Virus record (IMG/VR): IMGVR_UViG_3300032046_000172
Coordinates: 1 to 27,707 of that record
Reading direction: 5' to 3' (one strand)
DNA: 27,707 bases
Source: a virus
The notes below the pieces were generated by a model. That model had not been told where the DNA came from and ran no database searches. It saw only the letters and a list, made by a program, of their open reading frames with translations. Positions 4,571 through 12,950 of this stretch are shown one piece after another. Position 1 is the first letter of the stretch. Each line of letters begins with the position of its first letter. The translations under genes and the position numbers were made by a program.

Positions 4571-4654
4571 TTTTGCTCTGCGATGAAATGTACCCCGTAC
4601 ACGCCCGTAACCCGGATCGAATTCCGGCGGGTGGGAGACTGGCCAGTCCAGGCC

Positions 4655-5510
4655 AAGCTCAACGAAACGGAGCGGCGAGACATTACGCGACGAGGCGCCA
4701 CGAAGCGGCGAGACAAGGCCTCGGTTCACTAAACGCGACTGAGCGGCGTTATTTGACCCGACGGAACGGGATGAAGCGGCGAGACATTACGCGACGAGGC
4801 GCCCCAAAGCGGCGTGACAAGGCTAGGCGTGACAAGGCTGGCTTCACCGCACGCGACCTAGCGGCAATACCTCACGCGGCCCGATCGGATGAAACGCAAC
4901 GACGCGCGAGGCGACCGAGTGGCGACGCGTAACCCGACAAGGCATGACCGAGCGGCTCAACAAAACGGAGCGGCTGGACGAAACTCGGCACGATAAAGCG
5001 CTACGAAACGGAACAGAACTGAGCGGCGAGACAAGACATGAGGGTACGTCACCAAACGCAGCGGCCACACAAGGCTCGACCACGCCTGGCCTGGCCTGGC
5101 GCGGCCGGACCGCATGTGATGACGCGCGACGCAACCGAGCGGCGGGACGCAACGGAACGCTGCGAGACGACACGAAGCGGCGACGCATTGCGAAACGCAG
5201 CGGCGTCACAGGGCCGGACGTCACGCCACCGGACTGAGCGGCATCACAGGAGATGACATGACGTGACCTGACGGAGCGGCACGACGTGGCGCGATGAAAC
5301 CCGACCACGCCGAACAAAACCGAGCGGCGGAACATTACGGAACAAAACAGAGCGGCTCTACTAAACGCTGCATGATGGGACCTGACCCCGCCGAACAAAA
5401 CAGAGCGGCCCGACCGGACGCTGCATGATGAGACCTGACCCAGCCGAACAAAACAGAGCGGCTGGACGGAACTGAACGGGACTTAACTTAACGCAGCGGC
5501 AAGACCGAAC
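4655..5510 (+). repeat. Degenerate repeat field: AGCGGC anchors with 5-base phased AC units
   Basis: About 850 bases without a credible gene. AGCGGC occurs 20 times: 4671, 4704, 4742, 4775, 4808, 4860, 4951, 4969, 5022, 5060, 5138, 5176, 5199, 5237, 5275, 5323, 5351, 5404, 5457 and 5495, plus AGTGGC at 4918. Of the 20 intervals between these sites, 19 leave remainder 3 on division by 5 (the exception is 52). Between anchors, AC dinucleotides recur every 5 bases (for example 5256, 5261, 5266, 5271; then 5299, 5304, 5314, 5319; then 5332, 5337, 5342, 5347), and each anchor shifts the phase by 3. The layout is thus ACNNN pentamers punctuated by 8-base anchors. Longer near-copies occur at 4671-4719/4775-4823. 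A 5-base period argues against coding. I do not recognise the family. Confidence 0.85.
5366..5462 (+). repeat. Tandem 53-base near-identical repeat within the array
   Basis: The 44-base segment 5366-5409 recurs at 5419-5462 with two differences, a period of 53 bases. Each copy starts CGCTGCATGATG and ends CCGAACAAAACAGAGCGGC (first copy) or the same with one change upstream. The low divergence shows that this part of the array duplicated recently compared with the rest. Confidence 0.85.
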
Positions 5511-5557
5511 CGTATAGGACTTCTCTTTAGGGCCTCGAGCCCAGAATGGAGACCAAG

Positions 5558-6295
5558 ATGAGCGAGTACACGGCGCAAATCCTGCGGGACACATATGAGG
5601 AGATGACTGCGCAGGCCATCGCTGAGCTGACCTTCACCACTGACCTGATCGGCGGCCAGCCGGCCGATCGGGCGGGGATTGAGGCCTTCTGTCAGCATCA
5701 GCTCAAACTGGCTGGTGACGAACTACAAAAGGCCGTCGCCCGGATTCTCCAGGAGGAGATTGGTGAGCGCGAGGTGGCGGCTGCCGAAGGCGCGGAACTC
5801 AAGGAAAGGGAATCCTATGGCGTCAATGCATTGCGCCGGGACCCGGATGCTTGTGCCTGGCTCGGCGATTGGCAGATTAAGGCCTGCCTTAAATGTGCCG
5901 CCAGTCGGATCGGCCTATTCGTCAAGACGAAGGGCAGCAAGGGAGACCTGGCGGAGTTGGGCCAAGTCCGGGCCTATGGTATCTCCAAGGGACTCTTTCC
6001 CAACCACATTCGCCTGATCACAGAGGACGGCAAGCCTTACCTTGCGCGGGCGTTTCGCCGGTTCATGGGGCGGGTGAACACTCCACAGGGGGCCAAGTCG
6101 ATCGTGCACGATAGCGAGTTTGCCCCGCCTGGATGCCGGCTGGCGTTCGAGTTCCGGTTTCCGCCGGGCAAGCTGACCGAGGAAAACATCGTGGCGATCA
6201 TGGCCTGCGCCCAGCAGGTGGGCCTGGGCTCCGCCAAGAGCCTCGAGTGCGGGAAGTTCCGCATTGATCGCCTGGTAGTAAACATGAACAAGTGA
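5558..6295 (+). CDS. Unknown phage protein with RAMP-like (Cas7-like) features
   Basis: ATG 5558 is preferred over ATG 5546 because GGAG at 5548-5551 lies 6 bases upstream of it; it gives 245 residues. Residues 1-85 are helical and acidic, possibly coiled coil. From residue ~88 on the protein is mixed alpha/beta. Three segments resemble the RAMP (Cas5/6/7) superfamily: LGDWQIKACLKCAASRIG (102-119), like the 'GSSIKGALR' helix; an APPGCRLAFEFRF strand (199-211); and GLGSAKSLECGKFRI (222-236), shaped like the glycine-rich loop that ends RAMP domains. I have not matched it to a named family, and this fold guess is inference. It begins ~50 bases after the repeat field and is followed by the excisionase-like gene. 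No other CRISPR-type gene is present. Confidence 0.6.
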   Translation: MSEYTAQILRDTYEEMTAQAIAELTFTTDLIGGQPADRAGIEAFCQHQLKLAGDELQKAVARILQEEIGEREVAAAEGAELKERESYGVNALRRDPDACAWLGDWQIKACLKCAASRIGLFVKTKGSKGDLAELGQVRAYGISKGLFPNHIRLITEDGKPYLARAFRRFMGRVNTPQGAKSIVHDSEFAPPGCRLAFEFRFPPGKLTEENIVAIMACAQQVGLGSAKSLECGKFRIDRLVVNMNK

Positions 6296-6331
6296 ACTGT
6301 TTGTCCCTTGCCGGTGAGGAGCGGCCTGGAG

Positions 6332-6610
6332 ATGTGGCTGATGCAGACCCCAATAGCTGAACACCAACCGCCCTCGACAACCGCCGGCCTGTTGCTTATG
6401 ACCTACCGACAAGCCGCCCAGCGGCTGCAGGTGTCGGAACGCACCGTGTGGACCCTGGTCAACACCGGCCGGCTCCGGGCCGTCCGGTTCGGCCACACGG
6501 TGCGGATCGACCTGGCCGACCTGGAAGCCTTCGCTGAGCGAGCCAAGGGTGGGCAGGCAGGCCAGGCAGGTCAGGTAGGGCAGGCAGGCACCCCGGGCGA
6601 AGGAGCGTAG
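6332..6610 (+). CDS. Excisionase-like HTH DNA-binding protein
   Basis: A MerR/excisionase-type helix-turn-helix domain occupies the middle: MTYRQAAQRLQVSERTVWTL followed by VNTGRLRAVRFGHTVRI and a closing helix DLADLEAFAERAK. This is the standard 'HTH_17' layout. It sits directly upstream of the integrase gene (29 bases between), so it probably sets the direction of integration versus excision; a regulator is also possible. ATG 6332 has AGGAG 10 bases upstream; ATG 6341 with GGAG 9 bases upstream and TTG 6308 are alternatives. From 6332 the product is 92 residues. The C-terminus ends in a Gly-Gln-Ala repeat, which is unusual for this family. Confidence 0.8.
   Translation: MWLMQTPIAEHQPPSTTAGLLLMTYRQAAQRLQVSERTVWTLVNTGRLRAVRFGHTVRIDLADLEAFAERAKGGQAGQAGQVGQAGTPGEGA
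6551..6586 (+). repeat. Four 9-base tandem repeats encoding Gly-Gln-Ala
   Basis: The units GGGCAGGCA, GGCCAGGCA, GGTCAGGTA and GGGCAGGCA lie in frame at the 3' end of the excisionase-like gene and encode GQA-GQA-GQV-GQA. The copy number may vary by slippage. Confidence 0.85.
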
Positions 6611-8165: not shown

Positions 8166-8648
8166 ATGAACCAGCGAACCGCCTTGCGTATATGGAACCA
8201 GCTAGCCGGGACCGGGACCTGGCAAGATCACTTGACCCTGTTCGGGCTATTTGTCATGAGTCGAGGGGCCAATCCCTCCCTGCAGTACACCGGGGTTGCG
8301 TTGAAAATAGCCCAAAAGGAAAGGGACGTGGCGGCGGAGGTAGTAGAGGAGTGGGCCGCGGCGGCGGAGGTACTAGAGGAGTGGGCCGCAGTTCTGTGTG
8401 GCCATAAGATTGTCTCGATGCTCACCCTGGAACAAGCGTGCTACATCTGGAGCGCGGCGGCGCATGATGGGCTGGGCACTCCCACTGAATTCGGTCAGTT
8501 TGTTCGGTTCGGGGGGCTGCCGTTGCTGCTGAGCGGAGATAAGGCCCATGACCGAGAGAACCAGAAACGGGCGGGCGAGATGCTCGGCAACTGGGCCCGG
8601 GCCCTGCGGACCGAGAACGAAGGCCGACCGCCGCCCTTCTCCGCTTGA
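8166..8648 (+). CDS. Unknown protein with an internal 10-residue duplication
   Basis: 160 residues, with AAGGAG 9 bases before the ATG. It looks soluble and mostly helical (LRIWNQLAGTGTWQDHLTLF, LEQACYIWSAAAHDGLG, ENQKRAGEMLGNWARAL). In the middle the peptide AAEVVEEWAA is followed at once by AAEVLEEWAA, encoded by an exact 30-base tandem duplication with two differences (8331-8360, 8361-8390). Acidic heptad-like spacing there suggests a helical hairpin or coiled coil. It stands alone between the integrase and the fibre gene, with non-coding gaps of 122 and 360 bases, so it may be an independently expressed accessory gene. I do not recognise the family. Confidence 0.65.
   Translation: MNQRTALRIWNQLAGTGTWQDHLTLFGLFVMSRGANPSLQYTGVALKIAQKERDVAAEVVEEWAAAAEVLEEWAAVLCGHKIVSMLTLEQACYIWSAAAHDGLGTPTEFGQFVRFGGLPLLLSGDKAHDRENQKRAGEMLGNWARALRTENEGRPPPFSA
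8331..8390 (+). repeat. 30-base tandem duplication
   Basis: Two adjacent 30-base copies, each GCGGCGGAGGTA(G/C)TAGAGG then AGTGGGCCGC and one last base (G or A). They differ at 2 positions and keep the reading frame of the unknown gene. Confidence 0.9.
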
Positions 8649-9008: not shown

Positions 9009-12000
9009 ATGAGCAATCTGCAAGACGGAGCCATACTCAGGCCGTGGCAGATTGGCGTATTCGCCGTAGGGGCATGGACGGAGTTCGCTCTAGGCACGGC
9101 GCCGTTGGTCTGGAGCGACACACCGGCTAGCCGTAGCGGCCAAGCCATCGCCTGGCGATTTGTCGCTCCGGCCACGACCACGACCGTGCGCGTGGCCGTT
9201 TATGTATCTGGCTACGCCGGGACGCCCGGTGCCCTGACCATGCGGCTGTGTGCCTACGGAACCGGAGTGGCCATACCGGGCAATCTAATATCCAACGGAT
9301 CGGTTACGGCAGTTCCGGCGGGTGCGGGCACCTGGCTGCTCTTCACCTTCGCCATTCCGCCGGCCAACACCCTGGGCAACGTGTACTGGCTCGTGCTCGG
9401 CGACGGGGGTTGGACTACGGGGAATACGGCCAGCATCCTCGCGCGCAGTGGGGGCCTCTACGCCTTGGACGGCATGGGTCCTTCTCTGCTCTCGGCCTAT
9501 ACATCAACGGTTGGTTTTTCGGTAGCAGGGACAGCCGTTGCAACGCCGCCCGTGATCGCGATAGAGTTCGGCAACGGTGCGTTTCTCGGCCAGAGCCACA
9601 CTAACGTGGCGAATTATACCAGCAACACGCTGGAGCGCGGTCTGAAGATCGTCGGCCTGACCGAAACCCTGTTGGTTTCAGGGATGGCGGCCTATATTGG
9701 GACCAACGTCAACAGTCTGAAGTGCTACGCCGGAGCAACTTTGCCTGGAGGGACCATCTATTCCGGCTTTAACGGCGGCGCGGCTATGTCCCTCACCGGC
9801 GGACAAGCAGCCATTGGCGCGGCCGCTTTCGGCCCGTGTACGTTGGTCAACGATACGCTCTACCGGTTCGCGCTGGGTGCCTCCGCAGCGCACACAGGAC
9901 CACAGTACTCAGTGATCGAAGGTTACGCCGCGGCCGTCGCCGCGGGATTTGGCCCGATGCTGCTCGGCTGCGCCCCCTTTGGCGGTCGCGTTTGTGGTTG
10001 CATCTCTGACGGCGGGACCCCGGCCGCCTGGGTGGATTCGCCCCAACAGTTGCCGCGGATGGCCCTGATCGTCCGCGACCAGGTGCCGATCACGCGGCCG
10101 GCAGAAGCCGATGTCTGGTTTGGCAGCGGGCAGTACGGCGCAGATGGCATAGAGAAGACGCCAGCGAAACGGGCCTCGTCGATTGCGAACTGCGAAGCTG
10201 CCAAGGTGAAGAAGGATGTGGTCATCGACAACGTAACCGGCTCCCTCGAAAGCACCGACCCGGGCCAAGACAACGTGCTCAAGGACCTGCCCTACAAGAT
10301 CGAGTCCAGCAGTCACGTGGGCACCTTTAATGAGGCTGGTCGCAATACTGATCCGGGCGTGGCCCATGTAGAGGCTGGAATCGCATACAAGATCGGCAAC
10401 GACAGCAAGGAGGGCATCTACGATCCGACGGCCCCTATAGTCGACGTCCTAGCCAGCGGCGTTTTCACCAGGGCCAGCGAGGCTTTCAGAACTGAGCGAA
10501 CTGGCTTTACGGCACTGGCCGTGAACGAACCGCGAACCGCACAAGTGCTGTCCGTGGGCATCCCCGCGGTGGCCAATCGCGCCGCAGAGGGCGGAGCCGA
10601 CGGCCACCTCAAGGTGATGTGCTCGAACAATAACTACCTCTTCGCCGTACCCTCCGCGAATGCCAACTATATCTGGAGGTCCGCAGATGGGACCACAGGT
10701 TGGGCGAGGGCAAACACTGTAGCCCTCAGCACTGCCGCCGCGTCCCTTTTTGCCACTTCGACGGGCAGATTAGTGGCTACCGGCTCGGCGAAGGTTTGGT
10801 ATTCGGACGATAACGGAGAAACCTGGACACAGTGTAAGGATTCATTGGGGGCAGATGTCGCGTTGAGTAACCGCCCATATCCGTGGAGCTGGGCAGAGCA
10901 TCACGGGGTCATCTTGATGGCCACCTATGGGTTAGCAACGGAGGCGGCTCAGATCTGGCGATCGGCGGATGATGGAGTGACCTGGGACAAGATGTTCGAG
11001 CTGCCGGCGGGTTACGTGGACCACTTCCACGCGGTGGGGTACCAGGCGACTGCCCAGAAGTGGATCGCGGACTCAGGTGACGGGGGGGCCAACTGGCTTG
11101 ACGCCAACTCATATTTCACGGTGACGGTTGGCCAGAGTCTGATAACCATCAGCGGGCACTCGGTCAACACGGGTGCACGGGTCTACTTTCGAACGACCGG
11201 CACCCTGCCCGCGCCCCTGGCTCTGAATACGAAGTATTACCTGTCCGCGCCGAGCAGCAGCACCCTCCGAGTGCACACGACTTACGCGGATGCGCTAGCC
11301 CAGACGAACCCGATAGTTTTCACCGATGCCGGCACCGGCACGCATTGTATGTTTGCCACCCAGACACTGACCTGGGTTTCGGCGGACCCGGAGGCAGACC
11401 TGGGAAGTTGGGCCATCTATGCCACCACGCCTGGACCCGAGGGGTTCGATGTCAAATCGATCATGACCCAGAAGGTGAAGTTCCTGGACTACGGGCACGG
11501 CTCCAATCTGCTCTTCGGCAGCGATGGTTGGGCCCGAATGGGCTGGCTGGACGTGATCAACTGGCGGGGCGGCTCGCTGATGACCAGGCAGATCGCCCCG
11601 ACCGGTACCCCTCTCACGTTCTGTATTTTCAGGCACGGTGGTCTGTACTACGCGTCGATGGGGTACAACTCTGCGATGGAGGTGTTTTTCGTGGTGGCCT
11701 CCGCCAACTTGCAGAAACAGGCGGTGTTTGCACGGTTCATCGACGCCCTCGTGTACACACCGTGCCACATGGCCGGGTACAAAGGCGGTAACCTCCACCT
11801 GCTGTCGATGACCTCAACCGGCTGGTGCCACACGGTTATGGCGCCGGCAAAGTCGGCAGTCCGCTCGGGTTACTTTCTCGCTCCCCCAACGACAAACACC
11901 CTTACGTTGGCACAATCCCAGGCTGAGATTACAGGAATAACGAAATACCCCGCTGGGCTGACCATTGCCAATTCGTCCGACTCGGTTCGCCCTGGTGGCC

Positions 12001-12950
12001 AAAGTATTCACATTACGGGCACACCAGGCATCAACGCGGTTTGCTACATCTGGTTCGATTACATCACGGTTGTGCCCGGCGACGTGATCCAGGGCCACAT
12101 ATGGGTTAAGGGCAGTGGCAAGCATGACTTCAACATGAGGATCTGCGGGCTGCTCAACACGACCGAACTGAGCTACCTCTCCACCCAAGGTTCAGTCAGG
12201 CCAGATGGCGAATGGGAGGAGTTCTGGACTTGCCGGTACGTTGTGCCCGCCACCGGGAATCGGGGCCGCTTCTATCTCGTGCTGTACGGCAGCGCCCATG
12301 ATGGGACGGTGGACTTGTACATAGATGCACCCGAGCTGCTCAAGAACGAGAGGTGCATCGGCCGGTGGAACCTCGGCCAGGTGGCGACCGCCGGGGACAA
12401 ACTCTCCTACGTGACAACCTTGCCCTCCGAGTGGACGCATCTGTTTTCGATACAGACTCTGCTGGCCACGAACGTTGCCGCGGTGCAGAATACAGAATTA
12501 CTGGAGATGACCAAGTTCCACCTGGCAAGCTACGTTAAGGATGCCAATAACTATGTCACCGTCTATTATGACACCAACGAAAACGAGATCGCCATAGAGA
12601 GCGTGGTGGCCGGCGTTCCTAGTTACAAGAGCCTGGCCATCTGGATGCACCGGGAGGAGATCATTAAGTTCGCTGTGCGTTATTCCTCAGGTGTCGTGAC
12701 ACTGTCGGTCGGGGCATCGTACACACCCACCCACCTGGAAAGCATTGATCGCGGTGTGGATGATCTTGCGGGCGCGGGTCGGACCATCCAAGCCGGCGAC
12801 GTTGCCGGGGCCAACCTATTGCCCCACACTCTGTTCGATAGCCACTTGTACCCCGTGGTCATGACGGATGGTGAAGTCGAGTCCCGCTTTGCTGATGCCT
12901 ACACCAGCGAACAAGATGAAGCTGGCGGCATCATTGTGGTGGAGGATTAA
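9009..12950 (+). CDS. Large receptor-binding / tail fibre protein with Asp-box repeats
   Basis: 1313 residues, with GGAG 7 bases before the ATG. Residues ~1-350 hold two jelly-roll-like beta segments. Residues ~390-490 are a repetitive linker with DVVIDNVTGSLES and (I/L)xYKI-type units (DLPYKI, GIAYKIGNDSKEGIYD). Three sialidase-type Asp-box motifs follow: IWRSADGTTGW (~555), VWYSDDNGETW (~597) and IWRSADDGVTW (~648), implying a beta-propeller-like part. Residues ~705-780 match a linker domain I know from tail proteins (TGTLPAPLALNTKYYLS, then TDAGTGTH). Residues ~975-1110 look like a carbohydrate-binding jelly roll, and ~1115-1300 like a LamG-type domain. It probably binds or cleaves host-surface glycans. 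The catalytic residues of a true sialidase were not identified. Its place upstream of the packaging genes is unusual. Confidence 0.75.
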   Translation: MSNLQDGAILRPWQIGVFAVGAWTEFALGTAPLVWSDTPASRSGQAIAWRFVAPATTTTVRVAVYVSGYAGTPGALTMRLCAYGTGVAIPGNLISNGSVTAVPAGAGTWLLFTFAIPPANTLGNVYWLVLGDGGWTTGNTASILARSGGLYALDGMGPSLLSAYTSTVGFSVAGTAVATPPVIAIEFGNGAFLGQSHTNVANYTSNTLERGLKIVGLTETLLVSGMAAYIGTNVNSLKCYAGATLPGGTIYSGFNGGAAMSLTGGQAAIGAAAFGPCTLVNDTLYRFALGASAAHTGPQYSVIEGYAAAVAAGFGPMLLGCAPFGGRVCGCISDGGTPAAWVDSPQQLPRMALIVRDQVPITRPAEADVWFGSGQYGADGIEKTPAKRASSIANCEAAKVKKDVVIDNVTGSLESTDPGQDNVLKDLPYKIESSSHVGTFNEAGRNTDPGVAHVEAGIAYKIGNDSKEGIYDPTAPIVDVLASGVFTRASEAFRTERTGFTALAVNEPRTAQVLSVGIPAVANRAAEGGADGHLKVMCSNNNYLFAVPSANANYIWRSADGTTGWARANTVALSTAAASLFATSTGRLVATGSAKVWYSDDNGETWTQCKDSLGADVALSNRPYPWSWAEHHGVILMATYGLATEAAQIWRSADDGVTWDKMFELPAGYVDHFHAVGYQATAQKWIADSGDGGANWLDANSYFTVTVGQSLITISGHSVNTGARVYFRTTGTLPAPLALNTKYYLSAPSSSTLRVHTTYADALAQTNPIVFTDAGTGTHCMFATQTLTWVSADPEADLGSWAIYATTPGPEGFDVKSIMTQKVKFLDYGHGSNLLFGSDGWARMGWLDVINWRGGSLMTRQIAPTGTPLTFCIFRHGGLYYASMGYNSAMEVFFVVASANLQKQAVFARFIDALVYTPCHMAGYKGGNLHLLSMTSTGWCHTVMAPAKSAVRSGYFLAPPTTNTLTLAQSQAEITGITKYPAGLTIANSSDSVRPGGQSIHITGTPGINAVCYIWFDYITVVPGDVIQGHIWVKGSGKHDFNMRICGLLNTTELSYLSTQGSVRPDGEWEEFWTCRYVVPATGNRGRFYLVLYGSAHDGTVDLYIDAPELLKNERCIGRWNLGQVATAGDKLSYVTTLPSEWTHLFSIQTLLATNVAAVQNTELLEMTKFHLASYVKDANNYVTVYYDTNENEIAIESVVAGVPSYKSLAIWMHREEIIKFAVRYSSGVVTLSVGASYTPTHLESIDRGVDDLAGAGRTIQAGDVAGANLLPHTLFDSHLYPVVMTDGEVESRFADAYTSEQDEAGGIIVVED

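Follow-up and report, generated by a model that had tools for sequence, protein, structure and literature searches.

What is a block of DNA doing in the genome of a virus when it is made up of five-base units and broken at intervals by the same six bases? The question is raised by a segment of IMG/VR record IMGVR_UViG_3300032046_000172, of which the whole 27,707-nt stretch analysed here is called the window. The carrier of the window is a tailed phage with an integrase, and the carriers of such arrays are IMG/VR viral records with terminase, portal and integrase. The following features, named after the VIPR (Viral Interference Programmable Repeat) systems with which they are compared below, make up the locus:

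About 4651..5522, + strand: putative VIPR-like guide array of gAYNN pentamers in some two dozen segments, its outer limits set by eye from the pentamer register.
4671..5500, + strand: the anchors, 20 AGCGGC plus AGTGGC at 4918, each an AGC delimiter with the GGC that opens the next segment.
5351..5456, + strand: two neighbouring, nearly duplicate 10-unit guides, their NN read in register.
5546..6295, + strand: vipr-like gene, encoding a 249-aa protein (P0001) of RAMP/Cas7 fold according to its predicted structure and a fold search.
6308..6610, + strand: gene for an HTH_17/excisionase-like DNA-binding protein, directly downstream of the vipr-like gene.

A sequence-only reading of the same DNA had counted these 21 anchors and reported 19 of the 20 intervals between them to be 3 modulo 5. 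A recount gave the same figures, the sole interval off the rule being the 52 nt from 4808 to 4860; with exact AGCGGC alone, 17 of 19 intervals obey it (binomial P=1.5e-10). The dinucleotide shuffles named there as a possible refutation fell far below the observed spacing: in 1000 of them AGCGGC occurred 0.7 times on average and at most 4 times, against the 20 found, and AC pairs 5 nt apart numbered 12.0 +/- 3.0 (maximum 23), against 49. Nor is the array an assembly artefact, the other concern voiced at that stage, because the identical grammar occurs in independent viral contigs from different samples. That reading rightly said that this is no simple microsatellite and that it does not code for protein; no reading frame accords with a period of 5 nt, and the ORFs laid across the array are mechanical. 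It was equally right that this is not a CRISPR array, there being only 6-nt anchors with a period of 5 between them, no identical repeats with unique spacers in the window array, and no cas family among the part of the window's ORFs that was scanned. A search for a sigma-70-like promoter near the array found none.

The grammar of the unit becomes clear when pentamers are pooled. In 578 of them, taken from the genomes of 10 viruses, the consensus is G(0.47) A(0.82) Y(0.98) N N, with mostly G where the second position is not A, and with an NN that is hypervariable (~0.01 bit per letter). The nearly invariant letter is thus the pyrimidine after the A, and the AC reported every five bases, while well above the shuffled expectation, is really AY. 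The punctuation of eight bases among units of five, as the first reading described it, resolves in register into a 3-nt AGC delimiter followed by a first pentamer whose fixed part is GGC, so that GGCNN opens a segment and AGC closes it. The 5n+3 spacing arises because each full segment has that delimiter besides its pentamers. The commonest full-segment lengths are 38, 33 and 43 nt, and the guides run to about 3-12 pentamers, mostly 5-10.

Segments have been copied and have grown or shrunk by whole pentamers, as seen in the window (5351/5404), where the NN of the first guide reads TC TA GC AT GG CT CC CG AA AG and that of the second CC CG GC AT GA CT CC CG AA AG, and in the copies in contig G002. 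In the G002 array (L058, about 2600-2770) four guides in a row are near copies that differ by point changes and by whole-pentamer gains and losses; this is array growth through duplication. Such behaviour would suit a selfish or neutral expanding repeat with no function, but the NN are random while A, Y and GGC are conserved across divergent viruses. A pattern scan of cellular genomes gave 41 matches, of which those inspected appear to be repeats of other kinds or chance hits, and a tight linkage to one gene family, described below, already disfavours a functionless repeat, to which we accord very little probability.

The decisive clue, missed in the earlier reading, is the RAMP gene that lies immediately downstream of the array (an alternative start is the ATG at 5558, behind a GGAG motif). 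The AlphaFold model of its product, built from a 10-member alignment, has a pLDDT of 79.6 and a pTM of 0.72, and Foldseek finds 108 PDB matches to it at E<=1e-3, the best 50 of which are all chains of class 1 CRISPR complexes (Cmr, Csm, type VII, III-D and Csf). Among viral models, the top match that has a name is a 'Cas system-associated RAMP superfamily protein'. In PADLOC, single members of the family match Csm4 and Csf2 weakly, and neither Pfam nor NCBIfam names a family for the protein. It shares both the RAMP fold and a C-terminal glycine-rich loop with the class 1 CRISPR-Cas RAMPs (Csm3, Cmr4, Csf2 and type VII Cas7), here in a protein encoded beside a non-coding array, and by analogy it would form a protein backbone along a guide RNA. 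Unlike class 1 CRISPR-Cas, there is no repeat-spacer array and no adaptation genes were seen here, the unit is 5 rather than 6 nt, and the guide is gapped rather than continuous. The product of 6308..6610 is possibly an accessory component of the system, or simply a phage excisionase.

Whether such an array always lies beside the same genes, as had been asked of it, can be answered largely in the affirmative. A pattern scan of IMG/VR found five other contigs with the same grammar and several signs of a true array; the array directly precedes the homologue of 5546-6295 in the window and in three of these five, and directly follows it in another. A protein search found vipr-like homologues in 10 other viral records, and a same-strand array touches the gene in 10 of the 11 records, window included, lying upstream of it in most loci and downstream in two. 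The exceptions are a gene and an array that each stand alone. The homologue at L155 6001-6708 (IMGVR_UViG_3300031576_000004, a 163-kb contig), which is followed by tRNA-like genes, has no array that we could see beside it, and the strict pattern is absent there; the 256-kb viral contig G004 carries an array of the same grammar (L107, G004:119291-119631, minus strand) with no recognisable vipr homologue, and that array is either an orphan or served by a more distant protein. Four of the 11 loci (L009 5841-6068, G001, G012 and G013) have a small gene immediately before the array, a candidate accessory gene whose copy in G001 has a zinc ribbon-like stretch at its end. By tblastn, no vipr-like homologues were found in 50,697 phage records (INPHARED) or 72,556 plasmids (PLSDB). 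Planctomycete genomes, which had been named as a place to look, gave none in 392 Planctomycetota genomes, and an origin there was dropped.

The same linkage bears on the proposal that the array acts as DNA, as a set of sites to which a protein for partition, packaging or silencing binds. Five nucleotides do correspond to half a helical turn, and the array is placed near integrase and excisionase genes. Against this, the grammar is strand-asymmetric and in every case shares its strand with the neighbouring RAMP gene, the NN are hypervariable, and a lone 3-nt delimiter breaks the helical phasing, all of which makes DNA-level sites highly improbable. The packaging, partition and selfish-repeat roles entertained from the letters alone find no support.

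A gene and an array so coupled recall VIPR, described in April-June 2026 and proposed as a CRISPR ancestor. According to the main text of the 2026 preprint (PMC13142463), Vipr is a phage RAMP with guide RNAs built of GGY/NN pentamers, whose NN pairs are matched to DNA in such a way that each unit passes over one base, as a rule in a wobble position; its seven types (I-VII) have GGY/NN 'or a related consensus' in common, and phage SUSP1 and a P. fulva prophage exemplify type II. As in type II so described, we find a single phage-encoded RAMP whose gene is flanked by non-coding arrays, units of 5 nt that combine a fixed part and a hypervariable NN, and, for one guide, a fit to reading with a 1-nt skip at wobble positions. 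The two differ in their fixed motif, gAY/NN here (GGC in the first unit only) and GGY/NN there; in the AGC delimiters found here, unlike in the main-text description; in the units per guide (mostly 5-10 versus 9-16) and guides per array (some 20 or more versus four); in the structured 3' tail, none being seen here; and in the size of Vipr (about 220-290 aa versus 195). Nor was any gene conserved across the 11 vipr-like loci that could match the vap of type II. By that main-text description, then, this would be a variant distinct from the characterised type II, set apart by motif, delimiters, guide number and length, tail and protein size. The preprint also speaks of VIPR with 'staggered arrays' or a 'related consensus' (figs S17 and S18), and, compared by wording alone, these terms would fit our array.

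The proteins themselves give hints of a remote homology. A profile of SUSP1 Vipr, which we take to be L076:28474-29061 from its size, its neighbours and the flanking GGYNN runs, matches the vipr-like family weakly (hhalign P about 0.0015). The sole PHROG matched by two members of the family is phrog_4652 (E=0.0083 over residues 76-215, and E=0.042), the same one that SUSP1 Vipr matches at 1.4e-96.

The guides were decoded as NN series and searched, with skips of 0-3, against 0.9 Mb of system-carrying contigs. An AGC-delimited 9-unit guide of contig G001, situated immediately before vipr (G001b-672; NN = GC TG TT AT CA GC TG AC AT) matches that contig's own vipr gene at 18/18 under skip 1. The match has E=3e-6 within its own contig (105 guides and 4 rules tested) and E=2.5e-7 in the set of vipr genes, against which the full set of guides, shuffled 20 times, never scored below 1e-3; skips 0, 2 and 3 gave no comparable match, those of skip 3 being mostly the arrays themselves. 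The target is 27 nt long, exactly nine codons (MVQACIKQA) read antisense, and the skipped base is the third codon position in 9/9 of them. By eye, the match stops at the delimiters, the units beyond being unmatched, and therefore one segment looks like one guide. A second apparent target, of guide G001c-429 (13/14, with the skip at codon position 2), was within chance and was dropped, which leaves a single convincingly decoded guide.

A scan of IMG/VR with 16 of the 18 nt of G001b-672 returned 21 further contigs. These include a metallophosphatase-like viral family (L134, L136, L138, L143 and L151-L154) whose conserved motif, IVQAWIKQA, also matches the guide at 18/18 with the skips at wobble positions. 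This may be a coincidence in a large collection or a true target; coincidence is possible because the scans with the window guides and with one 12-unit guide gave 5-10 contigs each by chance, their flanking units disagreeing. The vipr match would be much harder to obtain by chance, since the space searched was so small. No target was found in IMG/VR for the window's own guides.

It is on this match that another account of the RNA turns, in which the array transcript is a scaffold or decoy coated by the RAMP, as in autoregulation of the vipr mRNA, and the NN hold no targeting information. An array directly upstream of vipr in most loci could be a leader, and most guides have no known target. 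However, one guide gives an 18/18 match under an independently published skip rule, in frame and between delimiters, and two loci have the array after the gene; we therefore regard a scaffold or decoy as unlikely, if less so than the DNA-level sites or the functionless repeat. Our reading, held with high confidence, is that this segment holds the guides of a VIPR-type system in a tailed phage with an integrase, and array and gene very probably work like VIPR and belong to it.

On this guide-array reading, the + strand of the array would be transcribed, probably together with vipr or just ahead of it, and split at each AGC|GGC to yield guides some 3-12 pentamers long; the one decoded target backs this delimitation, and cutting at these points is presumed. 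Copies of the RAMP would then line up, one per pentamer as the 5-nt period suggests, each holding g-A-Y and presenting NN. The NN pairs would be read on DNA as xNN, with one base skipped per unit, as published for SUSP1 VIPR and as the 18/18 match suggests here. Binding of such a guide would be expected to repress genes that belong to competing phages or prophages; one relative at least may also have its own vipr as a target. Two earlier suggestions, a binding array for a repeat protein and a transcribed structured RNA, each retain something, in that the evidence points to a transcribed RNA covered by protein every 5 nt; that RNA would be a string of guides and not a structured one, an Rfam scan of the window having given only a tRNA and the array fold a z of -0.59.

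We tentatively propose, further, that this is a VIPR type apart from the others, which uses gAY/NN as its code and carries many short guides in CRISPR fashion between AGC|GGC, some of them aimed at vipr genes, be it their own or a rival's, for autoregulation or for VIPR-against-VIPR warfare. That a lineage discovered independently has a different fixed motif suggests separate evolution of the code's fixed letters and of those that are read. Such a lineage also provides natural arrays in which a 3-nt delimiter parts many guides, and G001, with a guide matching its own vipr gene, is a directly testable case.

Elsewhere in the window, there is a tRNA-Met (CAT) gene at 886-961, near the contig start; a small ORF contains a 30-bp tandem repeat at 8323-8389 (2.2 copies, 91% alike); and 9009-12950 encodes a 1313-aa protein with a weak Sortilin-Vps10 or tail-like match.
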